From assembly GCA_947561715.1 (NCBI GenBank), contig OX387203.1:19282001-19346000 (forward strand): a stretch of 64,000 nt of DNA, written 5' to 3'. Positions 26,196-64,000 of the stretch are shown in pieces (position 1 is the first letter of the stretch; each line of letters opens with the position of its first letter). The translations under genes were made by a program, and so were the position numbers. This DNA is from Ascidia mentula. Lineage: Eukaryota > Chordata > Ascidiacea > Phlebobranchia > Ascidiidae. The notes beneath the pieces were generated by a model that was given only the letters and a program-made list of their open reading frames with translations, did not search any database and had not been told where the DNA came from.

Positions 26196-26385
26196 CATTG
26201 TTCCCCAACCGGTGGTACGCGACGGCATTCCAAGATATAGTTCGAATTTAAAAAAATCGTAAGTTATCTCAAAATGTTCGTTACTTCATTCCCTAGGTTA
26301 CTTTGTAACACTCAACTGGGTGGTACGCGTGAAAATTGTTGTACCTGCAAGTGGTATGCAACCACAAAAAGGTTGGGAATCACTG
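26196..26385. mobile_element. hAT-like MITE, 190 bp, array copy 1
   Basis: The termini are CATTGTTCCCCAACC and, on the opposite strand, CAGTGATTCCCAACC. The element is flanked by 8-bp near-duplicates TTCTAGAA and TTCTGGAA, which fits a hAT target-site duplication. It carries no coding capacity. Confidence 0.8.
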
Positions 26386-26756
26386 TTCTGGAAGGTTTAA
26401 CAGTGACTGTCTCACCGAAACTGACCCACTTGATGGGTTTCGAACGCGTCGTGCTGCTCCCGGGTCAACATACGAGCGCGCGCCGATGCGACGTTTCTTC
26501 CGATTACTCCGCAATATATGTTGATACGGACATCATTCAACCTCGCGTGGTTGGAAATACGATGGCACCATTACTAGAAATAGTTCCGGCGGGCGATGGA
26601 ATTGGCAAAATACACCGTGTGCGTTTCACGCGTTTGGCGTATCATCCGGTTCGCATTCGACATTTTGGCACCATCCTAACGGCTTCATATGACGGGTTAG
26701 GCAAACTTATATCATTTGAGGGTGGTAACGTGATTGTGTGTGAACTTCTTCGTTAG
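26386..26756 (+). mobile_element. Polinton-type structural-protein fossil, array copy 1
   Basis: The C-terminal part resembles a Polinton/Maverick-type structural (capsid-associated) protein: a segment with YVDTDIIQPRVVGNTMAPLL, then YHPVRIRHFGTI, then a closing stretch with ISFEGGNVIVCELLR. This pattern recurs in Polinton-encoded proteins of several invertebrates. Only a fragment is present, so the element is broken. Family assignment is by motif memory, not a search. Confidence 0.6.
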
Positions 26757-28409: not shown

Positions 28410-28990
28410 TTAAAGTTGAACTGTTTTCGTGCAACGGCGAGTGGTTGTCAGTCTCGTAAATCCTGAACGTTTTCAATCACAAGGCCGTGAAAGTTAACCT
28501 GTTTGAACGCCGCCTCACAACCAATCGGTATCACCATGTTGTGTTTGAGTCCCGCGTATCCTCTCTCCGTGTAACGAACAATGGTCGATAAAATTTAGGA
28601 GTTAACGTTGAAGTTATTTTCGTGCAACGATGAGTGTTTGCCAGCCTCGTAAATCCTGAACGTTTTGAATCGCAAGGCCGTAAAAGGTAACCTGTTTGAA
28701 CGCCGTCTCACAACCAATCAGTATCACCATGTTGTGTTTGAGTCCCCCGTATCCTCTCTCCGTTTAACGAACAATGGTCGATAAAATTTAAGAGTTAACG
28801 TTAAAGCTGTTTTCGTGCAACGGCGAGTGTTTGTCAGTCTCGTAAATCCTGAACGTTTTGAATCGCAAGGCAGCAAAAGGTAGCATGTTTGAACGCAGCC
28901 TCACAACCAATCCGATATCACCAGGTAAATTGCGAGATTTCTGCGCGATCTTTAGAATACGAGATCAAGTAGCGTTACGTGTTTGGGACA
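28410..28990. repeat. Local tandem repeat of about 193 bp within the array unit
   Basis: CGTAAATCCTGAACGTTTT recurs at about 28455, 28648 and 28842, with flanks that also repeat (GCCTCACAACCAATC, GTGTTTGAGTCCC, GAACAATGGTCGATAAAATT). The equivalent place at about 37590-38170 also has three copies, 41340-41700 has two, and the first unit has one. Copy number therefore differs between units. Confidence 0.8.
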
Positions 28991-29941: not shown

Positions 29942-30126
29942 CAGTGTTCCCCAACCGGTGGTACGCGACGGCATTCCAGGATATAGTTCGAATTTAAAAA
30001 ATCGTAAGTGATCTCAAAATGTTCGTTACTTCATTCCCTAGGTTACTTTGTAACACTCAGCTAGGTGGTACGCATGGAAATCGTTTTACCTCCAAGTGGT
30101 ACGCAACCACAGATTGGGAATCACTG
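29942..30126. mobile_element. hAT-like MITE, array copy 2
   Basis: Same element at the same place in the unit, left end CAGTGTTCCCCAACC, flanks TTCTAGAA and TTCAAGAA. Shared position shows it was inherited through unit duplication. Confidence 0.78.
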
Positions 30127-30497
30127 TTCAAGAAGGTTTAACAGTGACTGTCTCACCGAAACTGGCCCACTTGATGGGTTTCGATCGCTTCGTGCTGCCC
30201 CCGGGTCAGCATACGAGCGCGCGCCGATGCGACGTTTCTTCAGATTACTCCGCAATATATGTTTATACGGACATCATTCAACCTCGCTTGGTCGGAAACA
30301 CGATGGCGCCGCTACTAGAAATAGTTCCGGCACGCGATGGAATTGGCAAAATACACCGTGTGTGTTTCACGCGTTTGGCATATCATCCGGTTCGCATTCG
30401 ACATTTCGGCACCATCCTAACGACTTTATATGACGGGTTCGGCAAACTTATATCATTTGAGAGTGGTAACGTGATTGGGTGTGAACTTCTTCGTTAG
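30127..30497 (+). mobile_element. Polinton-type structural-protein fossil, array copy 2
   Basis: Paralogous fragment at the same position of the second unit, differing from copy 1 by scattered substitutions. Fragment only. Confidence 0.58.
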
Positions 30498-35370: not shown

Positions 35371-35560
35371 CATTGTTCCCCAACCGGTGGTACGCGACGG
35401 CATTCCAAGATATAGTTCGAATTTAAAAAAATCGTAAGTTATCTCAAAATGTTCGTTACTTCATTCCCTAGGTTACTTTGTAACACTCAACTGGGTGGTA
35501 CGCGTGAAAATTGTTGTACCTGCAAGTGGTATGCAACCACAAAAAGGTTGGGAATCACTG
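35371..35560. mobile_element. hAT-like MITE, array copy 3
   Basis: Almost identical to the copy at 26196, including the CATTG left end, consistent with the 9.2-kb-offset duplication. Confidence 0.78.
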
Positions 35561-35931
35561 TTCTGGAAGGTTTAACAGTGACTGTCTCACCGAAACTGAC
35601 CCACTTGCTGGGTTTCGAACGCGTCGTGCTGCTCCCGGGTCAACATACGAGCGCGCGCCGATGCGACGTTTCTTCCGATTACTCCGTAATATATGTTGAT
35701 ACGGACATCATTCAACCTCGCGTGGTTGGAAATACGATGGCACCATTACTAGAAATAGTTCCGGCGGGCGATGGAATTGGCAAATTACACCGTGTGCGTT
35801 TCACGCGTTTGGCGTATCATCCGGTTCGCATTCGACATTTTGGCACCATCCTAACGGCTTCATATGACGGGTTCGGCAAACTTATATCATTTGAGGGTGG
35901 TAACGTGATTGTGTGTGAACTTCTTCGTTAG
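35561..35931 (+). mobile_element. Polinton-type structural-protein fossil, array copy 3
   Basis: Nearly identical to copy 1, as expected from the 9.2-kb-offset duplication. Fragment only. Confidence 0.6.
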
Positions 35932-38900
35932 TCGACAATCGTTGGGAAGAATCGCTGGATGGCTCGTATCGTAACTCAAATTCTTGTTGTCGGTCTTACC
36001 CTAACGCAGATGACGTCATCTTTTGATATAGGACCGAGTCTACATGACAAGTTCTGACTCAATGTTTCCTTGTTAACTGACATTTTGCAATTGCACTTTT
36101 TAATATTAGCAAGATCCATCCTAGATACGTGATAAAATGAGATATTCCACAAACCGATGTCGTTTCATTCATTGTAACATAAAGCCGCATATTCCTGTGG
36201 TAAAACCTTGACTTACGCGCGAAGTCGCAATTCACGAATTCAGTTTTCGCTGCGTCTGTGGCTTTGGCGCTTTTTTGCGTTGTTGATTTGTCCGAGTTAC
36301 GCAATAATTTACATTGCAGAGTTATATAGTTAAAGTAAACAAGTTATATAATATTTACATGGTTCAATCCATGTATGATTTCTCGATACAAAAGAGCGTA
36401 TTTGCTAATTAACGTTGCCAGGAAACAACAGAGGTGGCAAACAGAAAAAAGTTTCCAGTCGCCTTTTTCTCGACGTAGTCGAATTGTTTGATTAATTCGA
36501 AGGATATTTAAACCAATCGTTTCAAGTGATTGTTTTATTCAAGTTGACGATTTGGTACAAGTTAAAGTTGGAGTCGTTAGTGACGTTTAATTAGGAATGT
36601 AGATTCTGTGGAGAGGGATATGACGTTGAATATCGATTTGTTGTGAAATTTACTGGTAATTACATGACTGTGGTTTAAACTGACCTTGTCTCTGAATATT
36701 ACGTCACAATATCACATTTACGTGTAAACAATTTGGTTATTGTGGATGTTTATTGCTTCTATGAAGAGGACAAGGTGAGCGACTGTTTGTCCATTTTTCA
36801 ACATAACGATTTACAAATTCGAAACTTTAGTAAAATTCCAGCACTATAGCTTACACACTAAAATTTATCGACAATTTCATTCACCAACCTTGAATAACCC
36901 TTAAAAAAAGTTTGGTTTCGTTTTCTGTTAACTTTGTGAGAACGATGAGTTACCTCACGGCAATTCATAAGGTTTGAAATACTCACAAAGTTCGTGTACG
37001 TAGCTTTGCTACTGATAGAACGACCATCGGACCGTTCAAATTTGTGTGGCATTTGCTGCACGGTAATTCTTGTATAATGTGATGCATTTTATTCTGTTAA
37101 TTCAAAATACATAAAAGATTTTAAAGGCAAAGTCTAAAGCTCATCTTCTATAATACAAAAAATTCTAATACAAATGGTAAAAAGCTGTTGAAGAAATATG
37201 GTTTAATTGCGCAAGGTCATCACGTTTAATTTATCAACGAGTTGGTTACAGTTGTAGGAATTTTACAGCGAAAAATTAAACAGAAATCGTTGGTGAATTT
37301 ATTCTCGGGAATTAAAACCGCGGAAATTTTTATCACCGCTGTTGTTGAATTTCACTGCGCGATCTCAGTGCATTTTGGTGCAATTGTGCGCATTTCTCAA
37401 TTTGCCACATTATCAAGTCCCTGATCTTATATTGGTTTCATGCGCTGATATTAAAGCGAAGCAAGTGTTTGAATGGTCGGCTTAACATTATGTCATTCGT
37501 TTTGATATCGCAATGCAATTCGCACCTTCGTTTAAATGCCATATTATATGCTAGTGCGCATTCAGAACAAGTCATAATTCATTCGATGAATTAACGTTGA
37601 AGCTGTTTCCGTGCAACGGCGAGTGGTTGTCAGTCTCGTAAATCCTGAACGTTTTCAATCACAAGGCCGTGAAAGTTAACCTGTTTGAACGCCGCCTCAC
37701 AACCAATCGGTATCACCATGTTGTGTTTGAGTCACTCGTACCCTCTCTCCGTGTAACGAACAATGGTCGATAAAATTTAGGAGTTAACGTTGAAGTTATT
37801 TTCGTGCAACGATGAGTGTTTGCCAGTCTCGTAAATCCTGAACGTTTTGAATCGCAAGGCCGTAAAAGGTAACCTGTTTGAACGCCGCCTCACAACCAAT
37901 CAGTATCACCATGTTGTGTTTGAGTCCCCCGTATCCTCTCTCCGTTTAACGAACATTGGTCGATAAAATTTAAGAGTTAACGTTAAAGCTGTTTTCGTGC
38001 AACGGCGAGTGTTTGTCAGTCTCGTAAATCCTGAACGTTTTGAATCGCAAGGCAGCAAAAGGTAGCATGTTTGAACGCAGCCTCACAACCAATCCGATAT
38101 CACCAGGTAAATTGCGAGATTTCTGCGCGATCTTTAGAATACGAGATCAAGTAGCGTTACGTGTTTGGGACAAACGAATAAATAATTTTTCCAGAATCGC
38201 TTTGAATTTATGGAATCAATCAATATGACTTGAAGTTCGCCCTAATTCAAACAAAGCACCTAAAAAAACAAGCAAACGTTATTTAATGACAAACATCGGC
38301 ATGTTGAACCTCGTGGCGACTGGTCGTGTCACCAGACCTGCCATGAAACAACATGTTTACCTTACGTAACTCACAAAACACTTGCTTCAAAATCACAATC
38401 AGTTCCGATGGTTTGTAACAGTGTACGTCGAGGTCGTGATTGGTGTCCTTGAACGTGCTGGTTGTTTGGTCACCAAAATTTAAATCGTGATTGCCGCTGG
38501 ACCAATAATTCTAATTTACAAGCATTTCGTTGCGTGCCATTCCGGAAAATTGTTTTCCACATTGACGTCATACGAGAAAAATTCCACCATTCCGCCGGAA
38601 TCAATCCATCGATTTACCGCGGGCCTTTTTATTACTGCTGTGTGAGATTTGAAGGACGTTGCGATTGTATTGATTTTGATATAATTGTGCGTAGGTAACA
38701 ATTTACTACTTTATTAATGCGATGATATAAAAACGAAGCAAATGCTGGAAAGCGTTTGATCGGTCGGATGATTTTGATATGTCTCCACTCGATAAACACG
38801 AGTCAGTTTAGAATAAGCTTTGCGAGGTCGAGCCGAGATTCGTGCACGCGATCATCACAGCGACCTGATTTGTTGAAGTTTATTTGCCAGTTTAAACCAC

Positions 38901-39122: not shown

Positions 39123-39313
39123 CAGTGTTCCCCAACCGGTGGTACGCGACGGCATTCCAAGATATAGTTCGAATTTAAAAAATCCTAAGTGATCTCAAAA
39201 TGTTCGTTACTTCATTCCCTAGGTTACTTTGTAACACTCAACTATAGGTGGTACGCATGGAAATTGTTTTACCTGCAAGTGGTACGCAACCACAAAAAGT
39301 TTGGGAATCACTG
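39123..39313. mobile_element. hAT-like MITE, array copy 4
   Basis: Left end CAGTGTTCCCCAACC, right end GGGAATCACTG followed by TTCTGGAA. Same position within the unit as in the other copies. Confidence 0.78.
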
Positions 39314-39684
39314 TTCTGGAAGGTTTAACAATGACCCTTTCATGGAAACTGACCCACTTGCTGGGTTTCGAACGCGTCGTGCTGCCCCCGGGTCAACATA
39401 CGAGCGCGCGCCGTTGCAACGTTTCTTCACATTACTCCGCGATATATGTTGATACGGACATCATTCAACCTCGCGTGGTCGGAAATACGATGGCACCGTT
39501 ACTAGAAATAGTTCCGGCGGGCGATATAATTGGCAAAATACACCGTGTGCGTTTCTCGTGTTTGGCGTATCATCCGGTTCGCATTCGACATTTTGGCACC
39601 ATCCTAACGGCTTCATATGACGGGTTCGGCAAACTTATATCATTTGAGGGTGGTAACGTGATTGTGTGTGAACTTCTTCGTTAG
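39314..39684 (+). mobile_element. Polinton-type structural-protein fossil, array copy 4
   Basis: Paralogous fragment in the fourth long unit. Fragment only. Confidence 0.58.
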
Positions 39685-42703: not shown

Positions 42704-42884
42704 CAGTGTTCCCCAACCGGTGGTACGCGACGGCATTCCAAGGTATAGTTAAAAAATCGTAAGTGATCTCAAAATATTTGCTACTTCATTCCCTAGGTTA
42801 CTTTGTAACACTCAACTTGGTGGTACGCATGGAAATTGTTTACCTGCAAATGGTACACATCCACAAAAAGGTTGGGAATCACTG
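42704..42884. mobile_element. hAT-like MITE, array copy 5
   Basis: Same ends; the flanking 8-bp TTCTAGAA is identical on both sides in this copy, the cleanest target duplication of the set. Confidence 0.8.
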
Positions 42885-43255
42885 TTCTAGAAGGTTTAAC
42901 AATGACCCTCTCATGGCAACTGGCCCACTTGCTGGGTTTCGAACGCGTCGCGCTGCCCCCGGGTCAACATACGAGCGCGCGCCGATTCGACGTTTCTTCA
43001 GATTACTCCGCGATATATGTTGATACGGACATCATTCAACCTCGCGTGGTTGGATATACGATGACACCGTTACTAGAAATAGTTCCGGCGGGCGATGGAA
43101 TTGGCAAAATACACCTTGTGCGTTTCACGCGTTTGGCGTATCATCCGGTTCGCATTCGACATTTCGGCACCATCCTAACGACTTTATATGACGGGTTCGG
43201 CAAACTCATATCATTTGAGAGTGGTAACGTGATTGTGTGTGAACTTCTTCGTTAG
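42885..43255 (+). mobile_element. Polinton-type structural-protein fossil, array copy 5
   Basis: Paralogous fragment in the fifth, truncated unit. Fragment only. Confidence 0.58.
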
Positions 43256-43827: not shown

Positions 43828-46800
43828 ATGGCCGAACGACAAACGGAACAAGCCGATGCACAAAATATCCATACCAAGGTGAGGTTGTTGTTCTTGGATA
43901 TCGAGATTTTTGCAAGTTGTCGCTAAATCTAATTTAGGAGATCCCGCGTTTTGTGCTAATTTACAATTTCGCATTCTAATACTGTTATGTCCCTGTTGGA
44001 ACTCTGCGACAAAAGTTTTAAAGCATTTTGTTTGACCCGAGATATTCTTCCCATTGCCCGTAATTATCGACAACGAATATGACTGATAATGTACCAATTT
44101 AACTTATCTTATTGAATCGGATCCGGGTAATTATGTATCGAATCCAATCAGGTAATTTGGATTCGGCAGCGTCCTGACTGCAGTTGAAGCGCTCCCAAAA
44201 ACTCTGTTTAAAAAACACAACGTATCGAATTGAAAATAAATATGTTTGAAGCAACTAGTTTCGTACTCACAAATACTTTTGACTGCTGGTAATACTTGTT
44301 TCATTCCAGAACCTTTACTTTGGTGACGTACATCAACACAATTACTCCCAACCAGCAGCATCACCAGCTAACACTGCTCCACTAACCAATGTTCAACAAG
44401 GTACTAAATCTTTACTTTTCTGAATGTAACAATTTTAAAAACATAAACATCCAGCTTTTTATAACTTGAAAGTAAAACATGAAAATTATTTTGTTGCAAA
44501 ATCAACCATCCCATGACCATCGACAACCATTATTTTCACCAATATTGTTTTTAAACAATATAACGGCCGTAGCTTATTGGTTTAAACGAATCAGATGCTT
44601 CAACAACTTCTAAAGCCGGTGTTCAAACCAGAGGGATGTTAGTTGACAAAAAAAAATCGCCAGTTAACAAAAGTTTGAACGCGCGTTACTCGGCCACCTT
44701 ACGAGGTAGCGACATGATATTTGTACACGATATAGTTCATAGGCTGAAGTTTCTAACGATATAAAAAAAAAACATATTCATATTCGGTAATGAATATGAT
44801 TTGCGTATTATGACATAAGTTGCGAAAACAAGATTCGCTGGAAAAATTTTGAAGCAGAGCATTCTTCGCGCTTAAACCTTTCAAACGATATAAAAATATT
44901 TGAAAAATTCGATAGGGGAAGTTAAGAAATATGAATTCATATTTTACAAACATAAAAAAACGGTGGTACGATGTACACTTTCGTCGATAAAACCTTGCAC
45001 ATACTTTGGCCCAAGCTGCCAAGGTTCTAAACACACTGAGGATATAGCTTAGCGTATAATACATAATTACATATATCAATACAGTCACTTGGTTTAAAAA
45101 ACTAACAAAACAAGTGTCAAATGACATACATTTAAATAACTGTTAAGCGTAAAAAATCATCCCCAAAACTATCGACCACGATTTGTGCGACAAACACACA
45201 CACAAAATATCAACATTTGTTAAACAGACTGTAACAGTTTACTAAATAGGAACACTAATTATTTGCAATCAGTCATAAATTCTCGGAACAAAGGGACTGA
45301 GCAACACTGCAGGAAACATAAACATGTTGTATTAATTGAAAACGTCTCAGCAACAAAAGAAACATTAGAACAGATGTAGTTTCCACTTTAAGTTGTCGGA
45401 TATGTAACGAATCCATCAGCAGGAGGCGATATTCGTCTCTATGCGTGTTGTTGAACTTCACTTTGCTGGAGGCCCAAACAAATTATTGACGTCACGTATA
45501 CGGGACATTGTGACGTATTAACAAAAACCTGTTCTCATTATATCTAAAAAATCGATCAAAAACTAAAAGATTTTCCTCGAGGTCCAATTCACATTTTACG
45601 ATGCGGGATTATTTCACGTTATTCAAAACTACTACGATTCCATACCGGGAATGTTCGGTAAACCACCTGATAACTTTACCAACGATGCTTGGTATCGCGC
45701 ATTGTCGTTGTGATTTAGGCACGAATACGGGATGGCACGAAACAAACCCTTGTTTATCTCATGAATAAGAAAATTATAGTGGGGATTATGTCGCTACAGC
45801 GAATACCTTGGTTCTTAATCAAATCCCCATTTGATCAGTGTTTTGTCATTCCCTGCTTGTGTTTTCCTAGCAAGCAACCTCTGTACCATTCTTCCCACAT
45901 AATTAACTCGCTACCAGAAATGTAGGAAATCTTTGATGATCTCCACAGACCAGTTGTTAGTAAGGGGAAGAACATGGGACGGCATGATGAGCAAACCTCG
46001 CTAAGTTAAGCGAGCTCGCACAAGTTGGGTTAAATTCATTATTGTTTGCCACACATGTGCAGGTTATGAGAAATCACGCAACTCATGTTCAGAAACATAT
46101 TACGTCAAAACGCAAGTGTCTTTTATTCCTGCAAAGTGACAAATTCTCTCGTTTACTTTGCTCCCTTGTACGAGGCACTAACGAGATGTTCTCAGCATTC
46201 CATTTTCCGTACAGAGTTCCTCGCTCATTCCTGATTCCTGACTCGTTAAAATCAGGTTCAGTGAGCTCGGTGGTTTAACGAACGAGGAACTTCTCATCAT
46301 GCCGCCCCTGAACTTATTTCGTCACTTCCGTTCACCAAACAACAAATTTCTTAAAATGCCTTTAACCGTTCTTCGTTGTTTTTTCAATTTGTAATTTCAT
46401 TGCTTTGGAACCACTCAACCACGGATAGAGATTCATAAATCTTTCACCACAATAATAACTCGACCACTCCCCTGCGAAATCAAACCAGGACATCTTACAG
46501 TAATTAGTTTGCCGCCCATACTTAGGTTGGTGTTGAAGTCGCTTCGTGATTTTTCAGATGAAAAACTCCAACAGGCAGTTGATGAATTTAAACAACATCA
46601 GTTGGGAAATCTCGATCCAGAAGTGATTCCATTTAGTCATAAGTTTAGCAAAGCAAAAATTCCTGAGGTAGATCCAATCCTAATGGAAAGAGACATTTAT
46701 GAAGGACTTGATGCTAAAAAGGCAGAAGAATACAAACCTTTATCTGTAGAAAGGAATGTAAACCTAATTGGTGGCAAAGAGGTCAAAATAAAAGATCTTA

Positions 46801-49800
46801 TTTCAAACTTCAAAACAAGCAAGGGTAAAGGAAATTTCATCTCATTCTATGGTCCTGCTGGTTGTGGAAAAACAACGTTGTCAAAAAGAATATCCAAACA
46901 TTTAAGAAACTCACACTTGGTGCTTAATCTTAGTTTCAAGGATATAAACTATGGTGATGACAAACTAACTCTTCAGCAGCTCTTGCTTGACAGACAGTTC
47001 CCTGATGTGGAACAATCTGTCCTTGATGCTACTTTTCAATGGATAAGAAAGAACCAGGCCAAATGCGCAATAGTATGTGATGGTTTGGATCAGGCCACAT
47101 GGTCAGTAGCAGACATGAAGTCAGTTAATGCAACATACGATACAGGATTAAAAGTTCAACAGCTAATTGCAAATCTCTGTGGCAAAAAGTTACTTGGAAA
47201 ATCTGCATTGATTTTTACATCCCGTCCCCATTCCCTGCTCTCAATTCCTCTAAAACTTCGACCGCAACAAACCATTTATGTCTACGATCTTTCTGCTGAC
47301 GACATGAGAAAGTTGTTTGATTTCTATGCTGCAGAAGGGGCCAAAAAACTGTGGAAATCGTTTGAAACTAAATCCCCACAAGTGCTTAACTTTTGCCATA
47401 ATCCATTGCTTTTGCAGTTTGTAGTTTATGCTGGTTTATTTGGGCCCACAAACCACATTCACACACTTACAGACATATTTGATGCTGTCCTAGAACAACT
47501 TGGTAACACTCAACATGCCAAGGGGGTAAAGATAGAAAAATTAAGAAATCCTCTTGGCAAAATGGCATACAACGGAATGAAACGTAAAACGGTCATGTTC
47601 ACACAAGCTGACCTCCTAGATGTTGGTTTGGAAGATATAAACGTGCAGGATGTAGTAATAAAAATGGCCAAATTCTCCTGGCTTTCAAGTCGCAAGGTTT
47701 TTGACGGGGAAAATGCGATCTTCTATTATATGCACCAAATGCTCCAGGAGTATTACGCTGCCTATTACATTTCTGTGCTCATGCCGGATGATGAATTCGA
47801 CCAATTCATCGATGAGTTGGTGAAAGAATCCCGCTGGGGCCCAACACGTCGTTTTGTTTGCGGTATTTTGCTCGGTAACAAATCTGGTATGTACAGCACG
47901 TTAAGCCCAATCTTTCTCATTTGCTAACCATTATGTCTTTTTGATTCCTGTGCCATCAAACAAAGGTTCTGGAAGTGACCGTGCTGAATACAATTTGGAA
48001 TCTGATACAACCAACAGCGAAACAAGCCATGCATCAACTTCAAGGATTCAGGAAATACGTCAGTTATTTGTATACTTGTTTATAATGTATTCCTTTTCCT
48101 ATGATATTGATGATGGCAAATAATGTGCACATATTTCTTGTTATCATCGGTACTAAAGGACCCATTCAATTTCGTAATATTTGGATCTAAGTATTTGTTG
48201 AATTTTTTTATGAGTAGTATGTAATGCTTCTGGTGCACACATTGTTTTGCAGCTTCTGAAAGGACTCCAATAACTGAGGGATCCACTTCACCAGGCACAT
48301 CTAGTGTGGCAACAACTTCTGAACATCATCATGCAAATGACTTGCATGAAAATGGTGATGAGTTCTACAATTTTGCCATATTAGGCAATTAGAAAATTTC
48401 TCACGAAACTTTTGTTGGTGTATATTATTCCTTATATTTTCTTTATTCTGCAACAAAGTGGAACTCAAAGGTCTTTAGGTTTAAAATACAACCAAATGCA
48501 GGAAAAGATTTGTTTCCTCATATACAAAGTTATCAAACCACTACATGGAAATAAAATGTATTAAATTTTAATTCACAGCTTCTGATGACTTGTCATCAAG
48601 AAACTCTGCTTCTGAAGACCTTGGTCATCAAGAAACATCAACGGCGAACATAGATGACAATCATCGAGAAGAAGGTAATGTACATCACAAGTCCACAAAT
48701 CCATTCGAGTTCAAGCATATGAACATTAATCACTTATCATTACACGTGGGCGGACGTATACAACCGGCAAAAGCGTTTTAACCGGATTTTCAAAACGGCC
48801 GATACAGTAGAAGCTATTTATCGGTATTCACAGGAACAAATACTCATTACATGAATCAATCAAACGCTCGAACCCGCGCGGCTACTACCTTTTCTGTGTG
48901 GATCTTTACGATCGAAGTTAAACGGCTGTGTGCGATACACTCGTGACCCGGTCAGTTTCTGTCAGGGTTGTCTTGGGCTTCGTGGACGGCGCCGCTTACA
49001 ACGGCGCTTGGGAACGAAATCCATTCGAGTTCAAGCATACGAACATTAATCACTTATCGTTACACGTGGGCGGACGTACACATCCGGTAAAAGCATTCCA
49101 ACCTGATTTTTAAAACGTTCGATACAGTAGAAGCTATTTATCGCTGTTTACTGGGACAAACACTCATTACACGAATTAATCAAACGGAATAACATAATGC
49201 TCGTACCCGCGCGGCTACTGCCTTTTCTGTGTGGACCTGACGCCTGACCACAGCGACTTGGCAACGTTTGACCTCAGGCGTTCCGGTTCGGTGCGCTTGG
49301 ATGAGCGATTTGAAATGGCTCTGGCAGCCCCGGTGGATGTAATTGCTTTTTGCGAATACGACAATATTGTGGAGGTAGACCGCTATCGAAACGTGATTAC
49401 AGATTTTGCCTCGAGAACGCATTTACGAATTACAAATTGGTGCTTTGCTTGCACGTGACCCCGTTACGTCGCGCGTCTTTCGTGGTGTTTACGCACGAGA
49501 CGAACTTGCGACAATACGTCACCAACCGCCGTCATTGTATATTGTTAACAGCGACCTGTCTTTTCGACCTGGCGCCCATTCGCTTGTATTTTTCGCGTTG
49601 CTACGCGCGCGCGGCTACAAACAGCTTGAAATCGTGGACATTTATTTGCATGACTTATATAGAAATGATTTAATTGTGGAGCGTTTTGTGGCTAACACAC
49701 GGAAACGAGCGTGAGGTTTGAATTCACGACCCTGGGCTAACCAGGCCCAACGCTCTACCAACTGAGCTACAGGAGCTCGGCAGTTTCACGGGGTATATTG

Positions 49801-52800
49801 TGGCCAAGGTACACTGGTGCGCAAGCCCACAACTTGTCAGGCAACCTTCACTTATACGCAGGGAGCCTATACCACTATAATCACCGTTTACAAAAATTCA
49901 TGGTAGTTGTCACAAAAATTCAAGGGTTAACAATATGCTATTCACAAACCCACATGTCTTTTCGCGACCACGACTGTTCCGTGTTCTTCTCCGCTGGGCC
50001 GTCTTGCACCCAATTGACCAACTTTCTTGAACGACATGTTTAGCGTAGAAGTAATTTAACCCCATACGTTCCGATTAACGACTTGAAATTTCACAATTCC
50101 CTTTACGTGGGCGCGCGCGCGCTCAGAGCAATAGAGGATTTGTAGAAACATCATCGGAGAGAACCTCATGTTTAACGTAGAAGTAATTTAACCCCATACG
50201 TTCCACATGGCGTGTGAACACGTTCCGATTAACGACTTGAAAATACGCAATTCCCTTTACGTGGGCGACCGGTTTTTTCCAGAAAGTGCCATTACAGATT
50301 GACCGCAAAATACAATTTTTAATTTCCCTACTTCGCGTTGGCAGTGACGATCGCGCGCACAGCAGCAGTCGCCTTGCAAGATATGCCCCAGTGACGTCAT
50401 ATCTTCGTCAAATAGCTTACGATGCGTTTCGCACGATTTCGCAGGATATGGTATTTTTCAAATAGAAAACAAAATTCGATTCGAAGCGGACCGAATTGTA
50501 CCCGATCACGGGATGTTTTGCAGGTGCGACAGAAAATCACTTTGCAGTGTTTTGTATGGATGTGTGACCAGTTCTGAGCGCCTGGTTTACTTTGGCTTCT
50601 ACTAGGGGGAAGCGATTAAAGCGATCACGCATCAGCCGCGCCGCTTTGTCCTGTATTGAACCTATAGGTAACCCATAAAGCGGTCTACCAGCTCTTGCGG
50701 TTGACCTGTTGTGACGAAACATTCCCCTTGCTTGAATCCAGGTAAATCGCTGCACACGGCAACGCTGAGAGGAATGCATTCCGTTTTATCAGCCTCGAAG
50801 TCATAGCAAATCATAAATGGATAAAAGCGCTGTAGTGGTGATACGTTAATGCCGCACAGTTGCAAGCGTTCGAAAATCAATGACGTCACAAGTCCAATTC
50901 GGGCTAAGTGCGAATTGCGGACCAGCGTAAGCTGTCTGCTGGCGGTTGTTCGCCGGAAACATATAATTGTCGGTTCGAACCGCCGCCTGTTTGCAAACAT
51001 CTGCCAATGAGAAACCATGTCATTCAATTGCACGTCAGAGCTGACTTTATAAACGCACCTACTTTCATCGTTGATCACTGGTAAATTTTGCTGGCTAGTG
51101 TGTTGGGTTCGCCTGCGCAAGAATCTGTTTTACAAACGAGATCTTTTATTGGTCGGGAAAATACACTTAATCCTCATTAACCGCTAATGTACGCGTTGTA
51201 ACTCCCCGTTCGCCCGGCGCCACTGGATCGGCGCACTCCGGTGCGTTGAGAATGCCGAAGTCACGCAAGATCTCATCAATGACATTCGACCCGGCGTACG
51301 TTGAATCGATTGTGTTAAGATCACTGCAAAATTCACGGTTCTCTATCGCGATATACACGAACGTATCGCGCGATTATCTTGTGTTTTTTGAAATGACTGA
51401 AGTAAATCAAAATAACCGAGATCTTCAAGGGGCTGTTGTATTTCACTCGAGTATGCGGGGTTGGACGACATTGCACGAAATTGCCTTACTGTAGTCTTGT
51501 TTGCCGGTCGCGAGCGTGTTTTGCAAAGCAGGCGGAGATTTTGGAGTTCTGCGATAAATGCAATGACAACATTTAAATGTAGTGAATAGGGAAAGTGTGT
51601 TGTCCGACGTCGAAGTCACGCTAAGTTAATGGAAAACATCTCTGTGCCGGGGTCATTAGACAACTCGAGAGCTTTACCTCGTTGGAATTTGACAATAAGT
51701 GTCGGTACCCGGTGTCGCACTGGCAGGCGCCAACGACAGCCACAGTTATCGCAAATCGCTCACCGGTTACATTCATTTTTATGTGATATGACCTGATCGG
51801 TTTTGGCAAAATGAAATCTGCAACGAAATTTTACACGCATGTTTTTTGCAAGACTGGAAAACAGAGAGTACCTGTGGGTGTCTCCGTAAGACAATTCAAC
51901 ATTCAACATACATACGTAGGAAACGGAAAGAGTACTCTTTCCTGTCTCCCAATCGGAAAGAGAATCTCAGAGACAGGAAGGAAGTCTCTGAGATTCTCCC
52001 CTCTGTCACCTATATACTACTTTCGTAAATCTCTATTAAGGATCAGATTAGTTAATCCTGATCCGTATTCATACACCCCGATTAAATCTGATCGTTGATC
52101 AGTAAGACGCGTGTTGACTAAAGAAGGTGAATCAAACGATTTGTCGGTAATTTTAGAAAAAATAAACTCCCAGTTTACTTCATTGCGCCTCATAGCGTTA
52201 GGTTCTCCGCGACGGTAACAACAAGGTCATAAAAAAGATCATAAACAAGGTCAAAGGTTTTGTTTACTTACTTGAGCGTTGATGGAATTATTTGTGGCTT
52301 GTTTTGAAAACAGTTGGCAGTATATTTTATTTTTTTTGTTATATGCAACTATATTTCTGACATTGCCGGAATATCACTTGGCAATATTGCATTATTTTTT
52401 TGCATTAACTATTACAGGGTCATTTTGCTTCGAAATGTAGCATTTTGTCTCTAATCAAACATAAAACGAAATCAACAGTTTTCCAAAACAAACTATTGGT
52501 TTTGCTAATCACAAAATATATTGACAACATAATAAATAAAAAACGATATTTATAATAAACAATAAAAAGGCATTGGAGACCAAATAATTTAATGGAGACT
52601 TGTTTGGAGAAGTAAGAACAAGCATGGCTCTTCACAGTGTTGCAATTCTACCTTGTCATACCATAGAGGGAAATAATTTTGCGTTGTCATTTTATGGTGG
52701 TAGAAATCTCGTTATAGCACAGAATACAACATGGTTAGTGTATTCAGTTCACACCTCACCAGTTGTTTTATGTCTTGCTTAGATTTCTATGAAAAAGTGG

Positions 52801-55800
52801 CTTTGGTGTCTAAGGTACAAGTAAATACAATGCATTAATTGCTTGGATCACAGAAAAAATTTTCCAAAAATTGTTCAATCTCTCTCAAAATTTAAAATAT
52901 ATCGATTGTTTGTTTGTTTTTTGTCATACAAATTACTTTGTGTCTAAATTGTAACACATGTTTTTTAACAGCTAGTGAAACCACCAGCACTGCTGCAGAT
53001 GAACTTAAGGCATCCAGAATATCTCAAATTGATGGTAAAGCTCAAGGACAAGGTAGAGTATTTAAATTCTACCCTAGCCTACACACACGTACATGTTATA
53101 CACTGTGTCAGTAATTTACAGCCAAAGTACATTATGTTCATGCCACAAACTTCAGTTAATATTAACCCCATATGTAGACATCATACAATATTTGTGCCAT
53201 TGTTGTTTTACATCAACACAAACTGTGGTTTAATTTGTGTTAAGTAAGTGGTAAATATGTGGCGACTCTGGATAAACTGTGGCTTGAATTAGAAATAATG
53301 TTTTTTTCACAGGTGGAGGAACCGCCAGTGCTGCTACAGATGAGCTTATGGCAACCCAAGGTAAAAGGTTTATTCTCCCCTAATATTGCTTTTCCTAGAC
53401 ATTAATTTGTTGACAGTTTCAAAAAATCAATTTAGCAGAAATTGAGTAAAAACAGATAAAAACACCTTAGTTTTATCGTCTGGTTTAGAACATATGTTAT
53501 ATTTAAATATGTTTTGCCCTTCCACCTTATTCCAGTTCTTATACAGAACAATCAAGAGGAACTAAAAGGCGTCTTCCAATGGATTCAAAAATTCAACCAA
53601 AACGTCGAAAAAAAGGTTTGTTTCCCACATAGTTAAGGTTACCACCCTTTCGCAAAGAATATATGATGCATTAAATTCTATTTCCCAGTTTCTGAAAATC
53701 TCAATTAGCTCCGCTACATCTATGTCTCAAAGTGATTTGTTTACTTCATTGCGCCTCATAGCGTTAGGTTCTCCGCGACGGTAACAACAAGGTCATAAAA
53801 AAGATCATAAACAAGGTCAAAGGCTTTGTTTACTTACTTGGGCGTTGATGGAATTATTTGTGGCTTGTTTTGAAAACAGTTGGCAGTATATTTTATTTTT
53901 TTTGTTATATGCAACTATATTTCTGACATTGCCGGAATATCACTTGGCAATATTGCATTATTTTTTTGCATTAACTATTACAGGGTCATTTTGCTTCGAA
54001 ATGTAGCATTTTGTCTCTAATCAAACATAAAACGAAATCAACAGTTTTCCAAAACAAACTATTGGTTTTGCTAATCACAAACTATATTGACAACATAATA
54101 AATAAAAAACGATATTTATAATAAACAATAAAAAGGCATTGGAGACCAAATAATTTAATGGAGACTTGTTTGGAGAAGTAAGAACAAGCATGGCTCTTCA
54201 CAGTGTTGCAATTCTACCTTGTCATACTATAGAGGGAAATACTTTTGCGTTGTCATTTTATGGTGGTAGAAATCTCGTTATAGCACAGAATACAACATGG
54301 TTAGTATATTCAGTTCACACCTCACCAGTGGTTTTATGTCTTGCTTAGATTTCTATGAAAAAGTGGCTTTGGTGTCTAAGGTACAAGTAAATACAATGCA
54401 TTAATTGCTTGGATCACAGATAAATTTTTCCAAAAATTGTTCAATCTCTCTCAAAATTTAAAATATATCGATTGTTTGTTTTCGTAATACAGATTACTTC
54501 GAATCTTAATTGTAACACATGTTTTTTAACAGCGAGTGAAACCACCAGCACTGCTGTAGATGAACTTGAGGCATCCAGAATATCTCAAATTGGTGGTAAA
54601 GCTCAAGGACAGGGTAGAGTATTTAAATTCTGCCCTAAACACACATGTTATACACTGTGAAAGTAATTTACAGCCAAAGTACATTATGTTCATGCCACAA
54701 ACTTCAGTTAATATTAACCCCATATGTAGACATCATACAATATTTGTGCCATTGTTGTTTTACATCAACACAAACTGTGGTTTAATTTGTGTTAAGTAAG
54801 TGGTAAATATGTGGCGACTCTGGATAAACTGTGGCTTGAATTAGAAATAATGTTTTTTTCACAGGTGGAGGAACCGCCAGTGCTGCTACAGATGAGTTTA
54901 TGGCAACCCAAGGTAAAAGGTTTATTCTCCCCTAATATTGCTTTTCCTAGACATTAATTTGTTGACAGTTTCAAAAAATCAATTTAGCAGAAATTGAGTA
55001 AAAACAGATAAAAACACCTTAGTTTTATCGTCTGGTTTAGAACATATGTTATATTTAAATATGTTTTGCCCTTCCACCTTATTCCAGTTCTTATACAGAA
55101 CAATCAAGAGGAACTAAAAGGCGTCTTGCAATGGATTTAAAAATTCAACCAAAACGTCGAAAAAAAGGTTTGTTTTCTATGTAGTTAAGGTTACCACCCT
55201 TTCGCAAAGAATATATGATGCATTAAATTCTATTTCCCAGTTTCTGAAAATCTCAATTAGCTCCGCTACATCTATGTCTCAAAGTGATTTCTTTACTTCA
55301 TTGCGCCTCATAGCGTTAGGTTCTCCGCGACGGTAACAACAAGGTCATAAAAAAGATCATAAACAAGGTCAAAGGTTTTGTTTACTTACTTGAGCGTTGA
55401 TGGAATTATTTGTGGCTTGTTTTGAAAACAGTTGGCAGTATATTTTATTTTTTTTGTTATATGCAACTATATTTCTGACATTGCCGGAATATCACTTGGC
55501 AATATTGCATTATTTTTTTGCATTAACTATTACAGGGTCATTTTGCTTCGAAATGTAGCATTTTGTCTCTAATCAAACATAAAACGAAATCAACAGTTTT
55601 CCAAAACAAACTATTGGTTTTGCTAATCACAAACTATATTGACAACATAATAAATAAAAAACGATATTTATAATAAACAATAAAAAGGCATTGGAGACCA
55701 AATAATTTAATGGAGACTTGTTTGGAGAAGTAAGAACAAGCATGGCTCTTCACAGTGTTGCAATTCTACCTTGTCATACTATAGAGGGAAATACTTTTGC

Positions 55801-58482
55801 GTTGTCATTTTATGGTGGTAGAAATCTCGTTATAGCACAGAATACAACATGGTTAGTGTATTCAGTTCACACCTCACCAGTGGTTTTATGTCTTGCTTAG
55901 ATTTCTATGAAAAAGTGGCTTTGGTGTCTAAGGTACAAGTAAATACAATGCATTAATTGCTTGGATCACAGATAAATTTTTCCAAAAATTGTTTAATCTC
56001 TCTCAAAATTTAAAATATATCGATTGTTTGTTTGTTTTCGTAATACAGATTACTTCGAATCTTAATTGTAACACATGTTTTTTTAAAAGCTAATGAAACC
56101 ACCAGCACTGCTGCAGATGAACTGAAGGCATCCAGAATATCTCAAATTGATGGTAAAGCTCAAGGACAAGGTAGAGTATTTAAATTCTACCCTAGCCTAC
56201 ACACACGTACATGTTATACACTGTGTCAGTAATTTACAGCCAAAGTACATTATGTTCATGCCACAAACTTCAGTTAATATTAACCCCATATGTAGACATC
56301 ATACAATATTTGTGCCATTGTTGTTTTACATCAACACAAACTGTGGTTTAATTTGTGTTAAGTAAGTGGTAAATATGTGGCGACTCTGGATAAACTATGG
56401 CTTGAATTAGAAATAATGTTTTTTTCACAGGTGGAGGAACCGCCAGTGCTGCTACAGATGAGCTTATGGCAACCCAAGGTAGAAGGTTTATTCTCCCCTA
56501 ATATTGCTTTTCCTAGACATTAATTTGTTGACAGTTTCAAAAAATCAATTTAGCAGAAATTGAGTAAAAACAGATAAAAACACCTTAGTTTTATCGTCTG
56601 GTTTAGAACATATGTTATATTTAAATATGTTTTGCCCTTCCACCTTATTCCAGTTCTTATACAGAACAATCAAGAGGAACTAAAAGACGTCTTGCAATGG
56701 ATTTAAAAATTCAACCAAAACTTTCAAGAAAAGGTTTGTTTCCCACATAGTTAAGGTTACCACCCTTTCGCAAAGAATATATGATGCATTAAATTCTACT
56801 TCCCAGTTTCTGAAAATCTCAATTAGCTCCGCTACATCTATGTCTAAAAGTGTTTGTAAACAAGAACAAGGTCATAATCAAAAAAGAAAATTAATTATTT
56901 ACTTTACTTCAATAACAACCTTCTCTTTTCTTTCACAAAATATTTTGCTCTGATTACTATGTCCAATGAAGTAACTAGAGAAAATAACAAAGTTATATGT
57001 GAACGTTGCTACCCTTAATCTACGGGATTGTTTTCCTGACTTGTTAAACTTGTCTGTCCTATGTCAGGCATTACCTTCCAGTCAGTTAGTTGGTCGTCGC
57101 CATGTACTGATGATGAGTACTGGTGTAATGGAAACATTTTATTTCTCCTAAATATCAGCACCATATTAAGCTTTCACATATAAACCATCTACGATCAAAA
57201 GTATCTGTTCGAAGGGGGTTAGAGGTTAAATTTAATGAACGCAGAACGGAAGACCAAATGTCTGTGCGCCAAATATTACTACTACTGCAAAGTTACTAGT
57301 GGTAAATAGTGGATAAATAATCACAAAGTGTTGTATTGTGACCTTCAACTGCTTACTGCAAGTTATATGAGTGGAAAATGCACAAGGGTAATTATTTCTT
57401 ACATTGAAATACCTCTATTTTTATCGCTACTATTTTTATCGCAAATGTTGGTCTTGTTTGTTTTTTAGTCGAACGTGGGGAAAAGTTGTTAAAAAAACTT
57501 TCCGAATTCTTCCAAAAAGAAGAAAAATATGACGCTGTAAGTGGATTTTTACCGGTTGTAGAAGGACCAAAGTTACAAGGTTAGTGTTCATTTCCAGTTT
57601 GATGCGTGATTGAAAATATAACTGTTACGTCACACTTGATTTTATGACGTAACACTATCACTGTCGCTATAGAATTAAAAGTGAACAAAATGTTTTTAGT
57701 TTGAGTTGAAAGTTTTGACGGAAGGATATTTTTGTCGGATCCTCCATGTTTGTTTTAATAAACTTGTTCCTGTTTCAGATTTCCTCGTGGATTTACAGGA
57801 AGTTGACGAAATATCCAGGGATAAAATCGCCCTCTCTTGTCCTTGGTTGTTGAGTTTAGGCGTAATCCCACTGACGATTTCGGATGTTTTCGCTCTCGCG
57901 GATTTCCTCCCTCGGATTCGAAAACCCGGTTTGGGGCTGTGTTTGGAGCAATGCGAACTTAATTCGGAAACCTTCAACATTATTTGTGAAGCGATTCTGA
58001 AGATGGAATACAAGGTTTGTTTGTGAATAAATGTTTTCCGAAATACTTTCATAAAACTTCACTTTTTGTTAAAAAATAAAACATGAAGTTAATTTTAATG
58101 CGGTTTTAAGTAAAAAATTTTTTAAGTTTGAAACCAAGATTTCCGACCAATCTTTATATTTTAAATAGTTGGAAGATCTCGAACTGGGTCACAACAATTT
58201 TGGAGAAATCGGTGTTGAAAATATTTGTCGGATTCTCCATAAAGTGGATAAGAGGTTGGGTCTGCTTTATTGCAGAATCGGTTTCGAATCTATTCGAGTC
58301 CTTTGGAAGAAAATCGGGACACTGGAAAATCCGGTAAGTATTCTGTTTAATTAAAGTAAAAACATTTTGTTGATTTAATGAAATTAAAAGTTTTGTTAAT
58401 TTTGCAGCCGAAAGTTGAGGGTTTGGATGATCGGAGGACATCAGTTCTCTCATCCGATGAAGACTCCAGTGGTCCGAATTAA
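43828..58482 (+). CDS. NACHT-LRR (NLR-like) protein, 19 exons, 962 residues
   Basis: Exons: 43828-43878, 44310-44400, 46558-47886, 47966-48058, 48253-48354, 48579-48674, 52972-53034, 53313-53360, 53547-53615, 54533-54595, 54865-54912, 55099-55167, 56090-56152, 56431-56478, 56665-56733, 57469-57579, 57779-58014, 58169-58333, 58408-58482. All introns are GT-AG and every junction keeps phase, giving 2889 nt with a single terminal stop. Residues 1-47 are a polar N-terminus. The NACHT domain spans about 130-460, with Walker A GPAGCGKTT near 146-154, Walker B CAIVCDGLDQ near 222-226, the arginine-bearing FTSRPHS, NPLLLQF and the helical FYYMHQMLQEYYAAYY. Then come a Ser/Thr-rich linker (491-587), three NLS-bearing cassettes (588-767), and RI-type LRRs (about 840-935). 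The family acts as cytosolic innate sensors; a nuclear role is inferred only from the basic motifs. The exon 4 donor (GTCAGT) is the weakest junction. An alternative start MPPI at 46509 would replace exons 1-2. Confidence 0.85.
44565..44640 (+). mobile_element. tRNA-derived SINE-like sequence in intron 2
   Basis: GGCCGTAGCTTATTGGTT carries an A-box-like core, and GGTGTTCAAACC about 40 nt downstream matches the B-box. The spacing fits a tRNA-derived Pol III promoter, but no cloverleaf closes. A short A-rich stretch follows. Confidence 0.4.
45973..46310. mobile_element. MITE with CGGCATGATGAG inverted ends in intron 2
   Basis: The left end GGGACGGCATGATGAG and the right end (GGGGCGGCATGATGAG on the minus strand) are inverted copies. 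The inner arms (CCTCG...GTTAA...CGAGCTC) also pair, so the terminal repeats extend about 45 bp with mismatches. The element is about 340 bp, with no coding content and no clear target duplication. Confidence 0.6.
46558..47886 (+). CDS. NACHT-domain exon of the NLR-like gene
   Basis: This one 1329-nt exon holds the whole NTPase module. The P-loop is encoded at about 46851-46877 and Walker B at about 47079. The region after Walker B has the usual STAND order: a short TSRP sensor segment, an NPLLL helix, a winged-helix-like part containing KMAYNGMKRKTVMFTQADL, and a conserved HQMLQEYYAA helix before the donor. The acceptor TGATTTTTCAG matches the phase of the preceding exon (CAACAAG|). The open frame extends 49 nt upstream to an ATG, and LKSLRDFSDEKLQQ there looks like a death-fold helix, so a second promoter or isoform is possible. 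Confidence 0.9.
48690..51600. mobile_element. Polinton/Maverick fossil within intron 6 of the NLR-like gene
   Basis: Three kinds of Polinton parts are recognisable. Plus strand: a structural protein of the F54H12.2-like kind, as two partial tandem copies (about 48695-48880 and 49015-49440, marked by NPFEFKH.NINHLSLHVGGR and later FDLRRSGSVRLDERFEMALA and YDNIVEVD). Plus strand: an adenain-like maturation protease piece (about 49400-49715, VFRGVYARDELA then LYIVNSDLSFRPGAHSLVFF). Minus strand: the start of a protein-primed family B DNA polymerase (about 51120-50660, PFMICYDFEADKTECIPLSV). No integrase or terminal repeats were found. The element is broken, with many breaks, rearranged, and looks old. 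Confidence 0.8.
49704..49776 (-). tRNA. tRNA-like pseudogene, anticodon loop reads GGT
   Basis: On the minus strand, TAGCTCAGTTGG matches the A-box, the D-arm GCTC...GAGC pairs, and the anticodon arm TGGGC-CTGGTTA-GCCCA is perfect, reading GGT (Thr codon ACC). The B-box region (GAATTCAAACC) has a mispaired T-stem base, and the acceptor arms do not pair. It is therefore a tRNA pseudogene or a tRNA-derived SINE head, lying inside the Polinton fossil. Confidence 0.5.
51925..52105. repeat. Cluster of strong palindromes and hairpins in intron 6
   Basis: GGAAAGAGTACTCTTTCC (51925-51942) is a perfect 18-bp palindrome. GAGAATCTCAGAGAC (51960-51974) and GTCTCTGAGATTCTC (51984-51998) are perfect 15-bp inverted arms with a 9-nt loop. 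About 40 bp further on, GGATCAGATTA and TAATCCTGATCC form another imperfect inverted repeat, followed by TGATCGTTGATCAG. Confidence 0.85.
52174..56844 (+). repeat. Tandem triplication of a 1.55-kb block with three exons
   Basis: The marker TTTACTTCATTGCGCCTCAT occurs at 52174, 53740 and 55292; units are 1566, 1552 and about 1552 bp and nearly identical, introns included. Each carries three exons of 63, 48 and 69 nt, all starting and ending in phase 1, so each unit adds 60 residues without disturbing the frame. In each unit the first two exons encode related peptides (STAADELKAS and SAATDELMAT). The third encodes a basic segment: KRRLPMDSKIQPKRRKK in unit 1, KRRLAMDLKIQPKRRKK in unit 2, KRRLAMDLKIQPKLSRK in unit 3. 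Confidence 0.92.
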
Positions 58483-61721: not shown

Positions 61722-64000
61722 TGTATTACATATTACAAATATTTCACTATTACATATCACAGTATTACATATCACAAGTATTTCAGTATTACAATTCACA
61801 GTATTACACATGACAATTATTTCAGTGTTACATATCACAGTATAACATATTACAAATATTTCAGTATTACATATCATAGTATTACATATTACAAATATTT
61901 CAGTATTACATATCACAGTATTACATATTACAAATATTTCAGTTTTACATATCACAGTATTACATATGGCAAATATTTCAGTATTACACATTACAAATGT
62001 TTCAGTATTACATATCACAGTATGACATATTACAAATATTTCAGTGTTATATATCACAGTATTACATGTTACAAATATTTCAGTATTACATATTACAGTA
62101 TTACATATGACAAATATTTCAGTATTACACATTACAAATATTTCAGTGTTACATATCACAGTATGACATATTACAAATATTTCAGTGTTATATATCACAG
62201 TATTACATGTTACAAATATTTCAGTATTACATATTACAGTATTACATATGACAAATATTTCAGTATTACACATTACAAATATTACAGTATTACATATCAC
62301 ATATTACAAATATTTCAGTGTTACATATCACAAATATTTCAGTATTACATTTCACAGTATTACACATTACAAATATTTCAGTATTACATATCGCAGTATT
62401 ACATATTACAAATATTTCAATATCACAGTATTACATATCACAGTATTACATATGACAAATATTTCAGTGTTGCATATCACAGTATTACATATGACAAATA
62501 TTTCAGTATTACACATTACAAATATTTCAGTGTTACATATCACATAATTACATATGACAAATATTTCAGTATTACATATCACAAATATTTCAGTGTTACA
62601 TATCACAAATATTTCAGTATTACATATTACAAATATTTCAGTATTACATATCACAGTATTACATATGACAAATATTTCAGTATTACACATTACAAATATT
62701 TCAGTGTTACATATCACAGTATGACATATTACAAATATTTCAGTATTATATATCACAGTATTACATATGACAAATATTTCAGTATTACATATCACAGTAT
62801 TACATATGACAAATATTTCAGTATTACACATTACAAATATTTCAGTGTTACATATCACATAATTACATATGACAAATATTTCAGTATTACATATCACAAA
62901 TATTTCAGTGTTACATATCACAAATATTTCAGTATGACATATTACAAATATTTCAGTATTATATATCACAGTATTACATATGACAAATATTTCAGTATTA
63001 CATATCACAGTATTACATATGACAAATATTTCAGTATTACACATTACAAATATTTCAGTGTTACATATCACATAATTACATATGACAAATATTTCAGTAT
63101 TACATATCACAAATATTTCAGTGTTACATATCACAAATATTTCAGTATTACATATTACAAATATTTCAGTATTACATATCACAGTATTACATATGACAAA
63201 TATTTCAGTATTACACATTACAAATATTTCAGTGTTACATATCACAGTATGACATATTACAAATATTTCAGTATTATATATCACAGTATTACATATGACA
63301 AATATTTCAGTATTACATATCACAGTATTACATATGACAAATATTTCAGTATTACACATTACAAATATTTCAGTGTTACATATCACATAATTACATATGA
63401 CAAATATTTCAGTACTACATATCACAAATATTTCAATATTACATATCACAGTATTACATATGGCAAATATTTCAGTATTACACATTACAAATGTTTCAGT
63501 ATTACATATCACAGTATTACATATTACAAATATTTCAGTGTTACATATCACAAATATTTAAGTATTACATTTCACAGTATTACACATTACAAATATTTCA
63601 GTATTACATATCACAGTATTACATATTACAAATATTTCAATATCACAGTATTACATATGACAAATATTTCAGTATTACACATTACAAATATTTCAGTGTT
63701 ACATATCACATAATTACATATGACAAATATTTCAGTATTACATATCACAAATATTTCAGTGTTACATATCACAAATATTTCAGTATTACATATTACAAAT
63801 ATTTCAGTATTACATATCACAGTATTACATATGACAAATATTTCAGTATTACACATTACAAATATTTCAGTGTTACATAACACAGTATGACATATTACAA
63901 ATATTTCAGTATTATATATCACAGTATTACATATGACAAATATTTCAGTATTACATATCACAGTATTACATATGACAAATATTTCAGTATTACACATTAC
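61722..64000. repeat. AT-rich minisatellite built from 15-bp and 24-bp units
   Basis: Units of about 15 bp (AGTATTACATATCAC) and 24 bp (AGTATTACATATGACAAA plus TATTTC) alternate and form higher-order blocks, for example near-copies about 360 bp apart. The array continues past the right edge. Both unit lengths are divisible by three and several frames lack stops, so open frames of up to 563 codons appear (YDKYFSITHYKYFSV-type on plus, VICNTEIFVICNT-type on minus). I do not regard them as genes. Confidence 0.95.

Follow-up and report, generated by a model that had tools for sequence, protein, structure and literature searches.

A triplicated block in the linker exon array of an NLR-like gene of Ascidia mentula, with a basic exon resembling a nuclear localisation signal

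The window, a stretch of 64,000 nucleotides from the genome of Ascidia mentula (C71:19282001-19346000), contains an NLR-like gene in which a block of about 1.55 kb is found three times between the NACHT exon and the LRR exons. The block is probably a recently amplified part of a frame-neutral linker exon array in a tunicate NLR gene, reshuffled between paralogues, in which a basic exon would serve as a localisation or docking segment. The acidic exons and the basic exon of the array are older building blocks of the family, as related exons are found in many genes.

Three copies of a block in the host gene

The block is present as three direct copies (starts at 52174, 53740, and 55292; spacing 1566 and 1552 bp). 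Their pairwise identities are 97.74, 98.26, and 97.98% over 1538-1552 aligned bases, introns included. The triplication is not due to chance, because identity of about 98% extends over 4.67 kb. An earlier note on this DNA had described near-identical blocks of recent origin, and the near-identity of the introns as well as the exons supports that view. Each unit contains three exons, e1 (81 nt), e2 (48 nt), and e3 (69 nt), all bounded by AG and GT and all in phase 1-1. Exons e1 and e2 are related (78% identity over 55 nt), e2 being the shorter. The cassette exons are frame-neutral, as the same note had stated, and all nine fit the open frame of the gene model. The number of residues added by each unit is 66 (27+16+23), not the 60 given there.

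The joined model consists of the NACHT exon, three linker exons, the nine cassette exons, and four downstream exons (Table 1), and is open for 951 residues up to a TAA stop. The exon before the LRRs is open only if entered in phase 1 (the other phases were read by hand), which fixes the frame. The NACHT exon matches Pfam PF05729 (E 1.9e-14, residues 151-309) and carries Walker A (GPAGCGKTT) and Walker B (CAIVCDGLD) motifs. The C-terminal LRRs, perhaps three as estimated from the two LRR exons, are related to ribonuclease inhibitor (phmmer E 3.6e-12) and NLRP1 (E 1.3e-4), and no Pfam match was obtained in this part at E up to 5. The gene is thus NLR-like, in agreement with its initial description. 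No B30.2 domain follows: the model stops after the LRR exons, and there is no Pfam match there. The first coding exon or exons upstream of the NACHT exon were looked for and not found. The AlphaFold model of the NACHT exon (mean pLDDT 32.7) was too poor for use.

Table 1. Exons and repeat units of the NLR-like gene, in positions of the window
Feature	Position	Strand	Remarks
NACHT exon	46501..47886	+	acceptor phase 1, donor phase 1; Pfam NACHT
Linker exon L1 (GSGSDRAEYNLESDTTNSETSHASTSRIQEI)	47966..48058	+	phase 1-1; relative in 7/7 genes with that stretch retrieved
Linker exon L2 (SERTPITEGSTSPGTSSVATTSEHHHANDLHEN)	48253..48354	+	phase 1-1
Decayed basic-exon relative, between L2 and L3	48451..48518	+	nhmmer E 6.6e-6; donor GT absent in the window gene
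Linker exon L3 (ASDDLSSRNSASEDLGHQETSTANIDDNHREE)	48579..48674	+	phase 1-1
Unit 1	52174..53739	+	1566 bp
Unit 1 exon e1 (ASETTSTAADELKASRISQIDGKAQGQ)	52972..53052	+	
Unit 1 exon e2 (GGGTASAATDELMATQ)	53313..53360	+	short relative of e1
Unit 1 exon e3, basic (EQSRGTKRRLPMDSKIQPKRRKK)	53547..53615	+	
Unit 2	53740..55291	+	1552 bp; e1 tract with variant pattern of the 19.65 and 19.70 Mb genes
Unit 2 exon e1 (ASETTSTAVDELEASRISQIGGKAQGQ)	54533..54613	+	
Unit 2 exon e2 (GGGTASAATDEFMATQ)	54865..54912	+	
Unit 2 exon e3 (EQSRGTKRRLAMDLKIQPKRRKK)	55099..55167	+	
Unit 3	55292..56843	+	1552 bp
Unit 3 exon e1 (ANETTSTAADELKASRISQIDGKAQGQ)	56090..56170	+	acceptor AAAAG, not AACAG
Unit 3 exon e2 (GGGTASAATDELMATQ)	56431..56478	+	
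Unit 3 exon e3 (EQSRGTKRRLAMDLKIQPKLSRK)	56665..56733	+	
Exon before LRRs (VERGEKLLKKLSEFFQKEEKYDAVSGFLPVVEGPKLQ)	57469..57579	+	open only if entered in phase 1
LRR exon 1	57779..58014	+	ribonuclease inhibitor-like LRR; 40 long genomic matches scored
LRR exon 2	58169..58333	+	ribonuclease inhibitor-like LRR
Last exon, TAA stop	58408..58482	+	

The modelled linker has 296 residues, with Ser 13.2%, Ala 11.8%, Thr 11.1%, and Glu 8.4%. The array would encode a low-complexity linker rich in Ser, Thr, Ala, and Glu between NACHT and LRR. There are six exon types in the linker of the window gene, with e1 and e2 related to each other, and all are in phase 1-1. Because the modelled linker exons share this phase, their gain, loss, or skipping would not break the frame in the gene models.

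Between the units, 46 ungapped and 29 gapped columns differ. Variable columns are denser in exons (15 of 198) than in introns (31 of 1340; Fisher p 3.5e-4), and 11 of the 15 variable exon columns change the residue (hand count). Unit 2 is a mosaic. At 18 of the 19 columns where it differs from units 1 and 3 (+25 to +138 of e1), it matches the gene at 19.65 Mb, and it matches the first e1 of the gene at 19.70 Mb at the same 18. Such a pattern of variation is explained by exchange between paralogues together with tandem duplication. Positive selection on the unit exons was considered and rejected: exchange accounts equally well for the exon-dense variation, given the linkage of the sites and the mosaic nature of unit 2. 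For the e1b exon (10 copies, 51 nt), a pN/pS of 5.5 was also set aside, because it depends on very few synonymous changes. For e1, none of the 13 copies compared has a stop in the coding frame, against totals of 4 and 70 stops in the two alternative frames; pN/pS is 0.64.

It is highly improbable that a single unit was falsely tripled in the assembly. The differing columns and the mosaic structure of unit 2 both speak against such an artefact, and so does a sister gene that has its own tandem units with a different period.

Each of the three units has a competing acceptor, ttccag, which lies just before 53536, 55088, and 56654, respectively, and precedes the start of e3 by 11 nt. Reading e3 from there (VLIQNNQEEL...) was rejected. 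The AG is missing from all four copies of the sister gene, and splicing at this site would shift the frame, so that e3 would contain a stop in units 2 and 3. Its use as a splice variant is possible.

Several other repeats are found in the window. A tandem array of a 21-bp repeat (TGAACAACAAATGGGGGACCA), with about 524 copies, occupies positions 8-11029; in the part covered, both strands carry long open frames. Five similar ORFs (SAIYVDTDIIQPRVVG-like) at 26241-26756, 30054-30497, 35416-35931, 39235-39684, and 42809-43255 look like a dispersed mobile element; the one ORF scanned with Pfam, at 30054-30494, showed no match. The same 193-bp tandem repeat is present at 28410-28923 and 37591-38105, 9.18 kb apart, which suggests a duplicated block of about 9 kb. 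An AT-rich tandem array of 39-, 24-, and 15-bp repeats extends from 61723 to 63994.

Related exons in the sister gene and across the NLR family

In the mitochondrial COX1 frame of the 195.8-Mb assembly, 18 codons are AGA or AGG, and translating them as glycine appears to give back the glycines usual in COX1; this use of AGR for glycine is the ascidian mitochondrial code and marks the host as a tunicate. Searches of the assembly revealed a very large NLR family. The NACHT exon gave at least 90 matches (90 of 300 candidates scored), 57 of them on C71, the contig of the window, and 30 on C69. At least 68 rows matched the LRR end (40 of 108 candidates scored). By NACHT identity (86-90%), seven other genes group closely with the window gene. 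Two NLR loci (L042 and L043, at C71:15.24 and 15.27 Mb) lie 29,022 bp apart and differ by 2 mismatches over 8978 bp (99.98% identity); either the duplication is very recent or the assembly contains one locus twice.

The sister gene is located at C71:19.21-19.24 Mb, about 100-110 kb from the window gene. It contains four e2-e3-e1 units with a spacing of 2129-2136 bp, and a comparison of three full units gave identities of 99.1-99.4%. The sister and window units have introns of different lengths, which points either to separate amplification of the two arrays or to homogenisation within each gene. The arrays would grow by tandem duplication and be reshuffled by exchange between paralogues, as the unit numbers in the two genes and the mosaic unit 2 suggest.

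When linker exons of known types were checked for an AG and a phase-1 GT, both were present in 12 of the 12 placed in the window gene and in 19 of the 20 placed in the sister gene. In three other close genes the same test gave 7/7, 5/5, and 4/4. The five close genes thus have 4 to 19 recognised linker exons, a count that covers known exon types, so that other types would escape it. In e3 of units 1 and 2 the scan ended at an internal GT, and the gene model uses the donor that gives 69 nt. Two distant genes gave 3 of 4 each; the fourth is in both cases the basic exon, whose start was misplaced in the scan and whose splice sites are present.

A DNA search with a 201-nt e3 stretch gave seven matches (7/7 candidates scored), three in the window gene and four in the sister gene, as if e3 were unique to these two genes. 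This was disproved by an older form of the basic exon (for example VYSNSATKKRTGFFARLFSRRSKKHPKHAGK), to which nucleotide matches at 13.82 and 15.18 Mb led. A genome search with the older form gave at least 41 matches (40 of 43 candidates scored). The exon set is therefore common to a large tunicate NLR family, and the cassette is not the peculiarity of one gene that it had first been taken for.

The 40 stretches retrieved cover all 41 match rows. Both splice sites are present in 34 of the 40, and 33 are also in frame, none of which (0/33) has a stop. Among the 7 stretches without an intact exon, four have no recognised acceptor, two have no donor, and one has a frameshift. An open coding frame alone is weak evidence here, because either of the other two frames is also open in all but 2 of 23 copies. 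An NACHT exon lies within 8 kb upstream for 33 of the 41 rows, counted against the 57 of 90 NACHT rows that are on C71. For 22 of the 41, that NACHT exon is accompanied by an LRR end within 12 kb downstream (57 of 90 NACHT rows and 40 of 68 LRR rows used). Compared with the older form, e3 of the window gene begins at an acceptor lying further downstream, and its reading frame is unchanged. Counterparts of the basic exon are also found between L2 and L3 in five close genes, one form having a net charge of +3. This counterpart has lost its donor GT in both the window gene and the sister gene.

Among 25 distinct copies of equal length, divergence per site is 0.061 in the exon, 0.082 in the upstream flank, and 0.057 in the downstream flank. 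Codon positions 1 to 3 diverge by 0.038, 0.075, and 0.070, and pN/pS in the coding frame is 0.75. Strong purifying selection on the basic exon was thus not found, since its divergence is similar to that of the flanks. To judge from these comparisons, constraint on its protein sequence appears to be weak or absent.

Such divergence is what a passive spacer would show, that is, near-neutral filler that drifts in length and charge through unequal exchange and resembles an NLS because of its composition. The range of linker exon numbers among close genes and the residue changes at most variable exon columns fit the same explanation. A spacer of this kind does not readily account for the 33 of 40 family copies that are intact and stop-free, or for the common phase of all six linker exon types in the window. 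A passive spacer is possible, though it falls short of being probable.

The basic segment and its possible roles

In units 1 and 2, e3 encodes KRRLxMDxKIQPKRRKK (KR-X10-KRRKK). The bipartite KR-10-KRRK pattern noticed in these two units is thus present in the sequence. In unit 3 the corresponding motif is KRRLAMDLKIQPKLSRK (KR-10-KLSRK). All three units, unit 3 included, match a loose bipartite rule that asks for two basic residues and, after a spacer of 10-12, five residues of which three are basic. The tail of unit 3 does differ from that of the others, as the earlier note had observed, but its reading as a lost second cluster does not hold under this rule, and the direction of change is probably the reverse. 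The KLSRK tail is found in 4 of 4 copies of the sister gene. Over the 12 differing bases of the tail, the older exon in its most frequent form differs from unit 3 at three and from unit 1 at five; the form at 15.18 Mb differs from each at four (hand counts). The KLSRK tail is probably ancestral. Because unit 3 shares it with all four sister copies, a gain of KRRKK in units 1 and 2 is the simpler and more likely reading than a loss in unit 3.

The three forms of the basic exon have net charges of +6 to +10, in contrast to -1 to -7 for five acidic linker exons. Two other copies for which charge was computed are less basic (+3 and +1). In the family, 30 of the 33 intact older exons match the bipartite rule (KK/KR plus RRSKK). 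The basic clusters sit at different places in the window e3 and in the family exon, yet both match. The rule is loose, however. It is matched by 32-34% of shuffled sequences for units 1 and 2, 10-11% for unit 3, and 17% for the family consensus, and also by one stretch of the NACHT exon.

These patterns bear on the idea that e3 is a working bipartite signal for importin-alpha and that the number of cassettes sets the nuclear share of the receptor, with an effect like that of CIITA or NLRC5. The presence of KR-10-KRRKK in units 1 and 2 and KR-10-KLSRK in unit 3 and the sister gene, the frequent match in the family, and the match of both exon forms despite shifted clusters are all in its favour. 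The lack of special conservation of the basic exon weighs on the other side, together with the ease with which shuffles pass. The position is also different, as the NLRC5 signal is described as preceding NACHT (PMC7922096). A nuclear role of this type is rather unlikely. The basic segment resembling a nuclear signal is real in the sequence, and nuclear import is a hypothesis, because the exon diverges like introns and 10-34% of shuffles match the rule. It is decidedly unlikely that the genes form a large tunicate NLR clade in which import signals are carried on frame-neutral linker exons, with copy number and splicing tuning the nuclear dose.

Alternatively, the basic linker may dock the receptor on acidic lipids or nucleic acid. 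The charge difference between the basic and acidic exons fits such docking. The model for it would be NLRP3, whose polybasic stretch sits before NACHT. This stretch (aa 127-146) is reported to be conserved in orthologues and to bind PI4P (PMC9402428). As in NLRP3, the basic stretch of the window gene lies outside the folded NLR core, but its position differs and the two are compared by analogy, not homology. Polybasic docking is somewhat unlikely.

In the preferred reading, the recently amplified linker array, the basic exon would act as a localisation or docking segment, either for nuclear import or for polybasic binding to membrane or nucleic acid. Copy number and splicing would then tune the length of the linker, its charge, and the number of signals.

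Comparison with known immune receptor families

The nearest known case, by analogy, appears to be the NLR-B30.2 genes of zebrafish and other teleosts. Zebrafish has nearly 400 NLR genes, many of them on chromosome 4, in which a motif of about 30 residues is encoded one per exon, in variable number, and shuffled among members (PMC4852459). Short repeats encoded by exons in variable number are common to both systems. In contrast to the zebrafish repeats, described as N-terminal to Fisna-NACHT, those of the window gene lie between NACHT and LRR, have other sequences, and include a basic exon. No Fisna domain was found beside NACHT among the best 25 of 26 Pfam families, the 26th ranking below E 0.13.

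The likeness to CIITA and NLRC5 drawn in the earlier note is weak. What holds is that a NACHT-LRR protein carries a bipartite basic pattern, a likeness of pattern that shuffles also reproduce at the frequencies given above. The comparison is weakened because the signals differ in position relative to NACHT. The bipartite NLS of NLRC5 is placed at residues 121-134, and NLRC5 is described with twenty LRRs (PMC7922096). In the window gene, as modelled from the NACHT exon onward, the basic exons are in the NACHT-LRR linker, and the LRRs are perhaps three.

The sea urchin SpTransformer (185/333) genes are similar, as far as described, in that immune genes are diversified through repeats and local duplication. 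They are not known to be NLRs. In a metazoan survey, the ascidian NLRs described are of the NACHT-LRR or NACHT-only type (PMC11508797). No paper on tunicate NLR expansion was found by title in the open-access literature, and the open-access literature on tandem or linker exons gave no earlier report of a modular signal array between NACHT and LRR. The exon array is real. Diversification of NLRs by exon repeats is already known, and this array, in the NACHT-LRR linker and with a basic exon, is a new form of it.

In this animal NLR family, the segment that joins switch and sensor is itself encoded by an array of exons that can expand, with tandem units in two sister genes and reshuffling between paralogues. 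Should the basic exons function as signals, the number of exon copies could determine where a receptor is located, which would be a simple way to diversify innate receptors. The genes described here provide a concrete set for asking whether invertebrate NLRs act in the nucleus.
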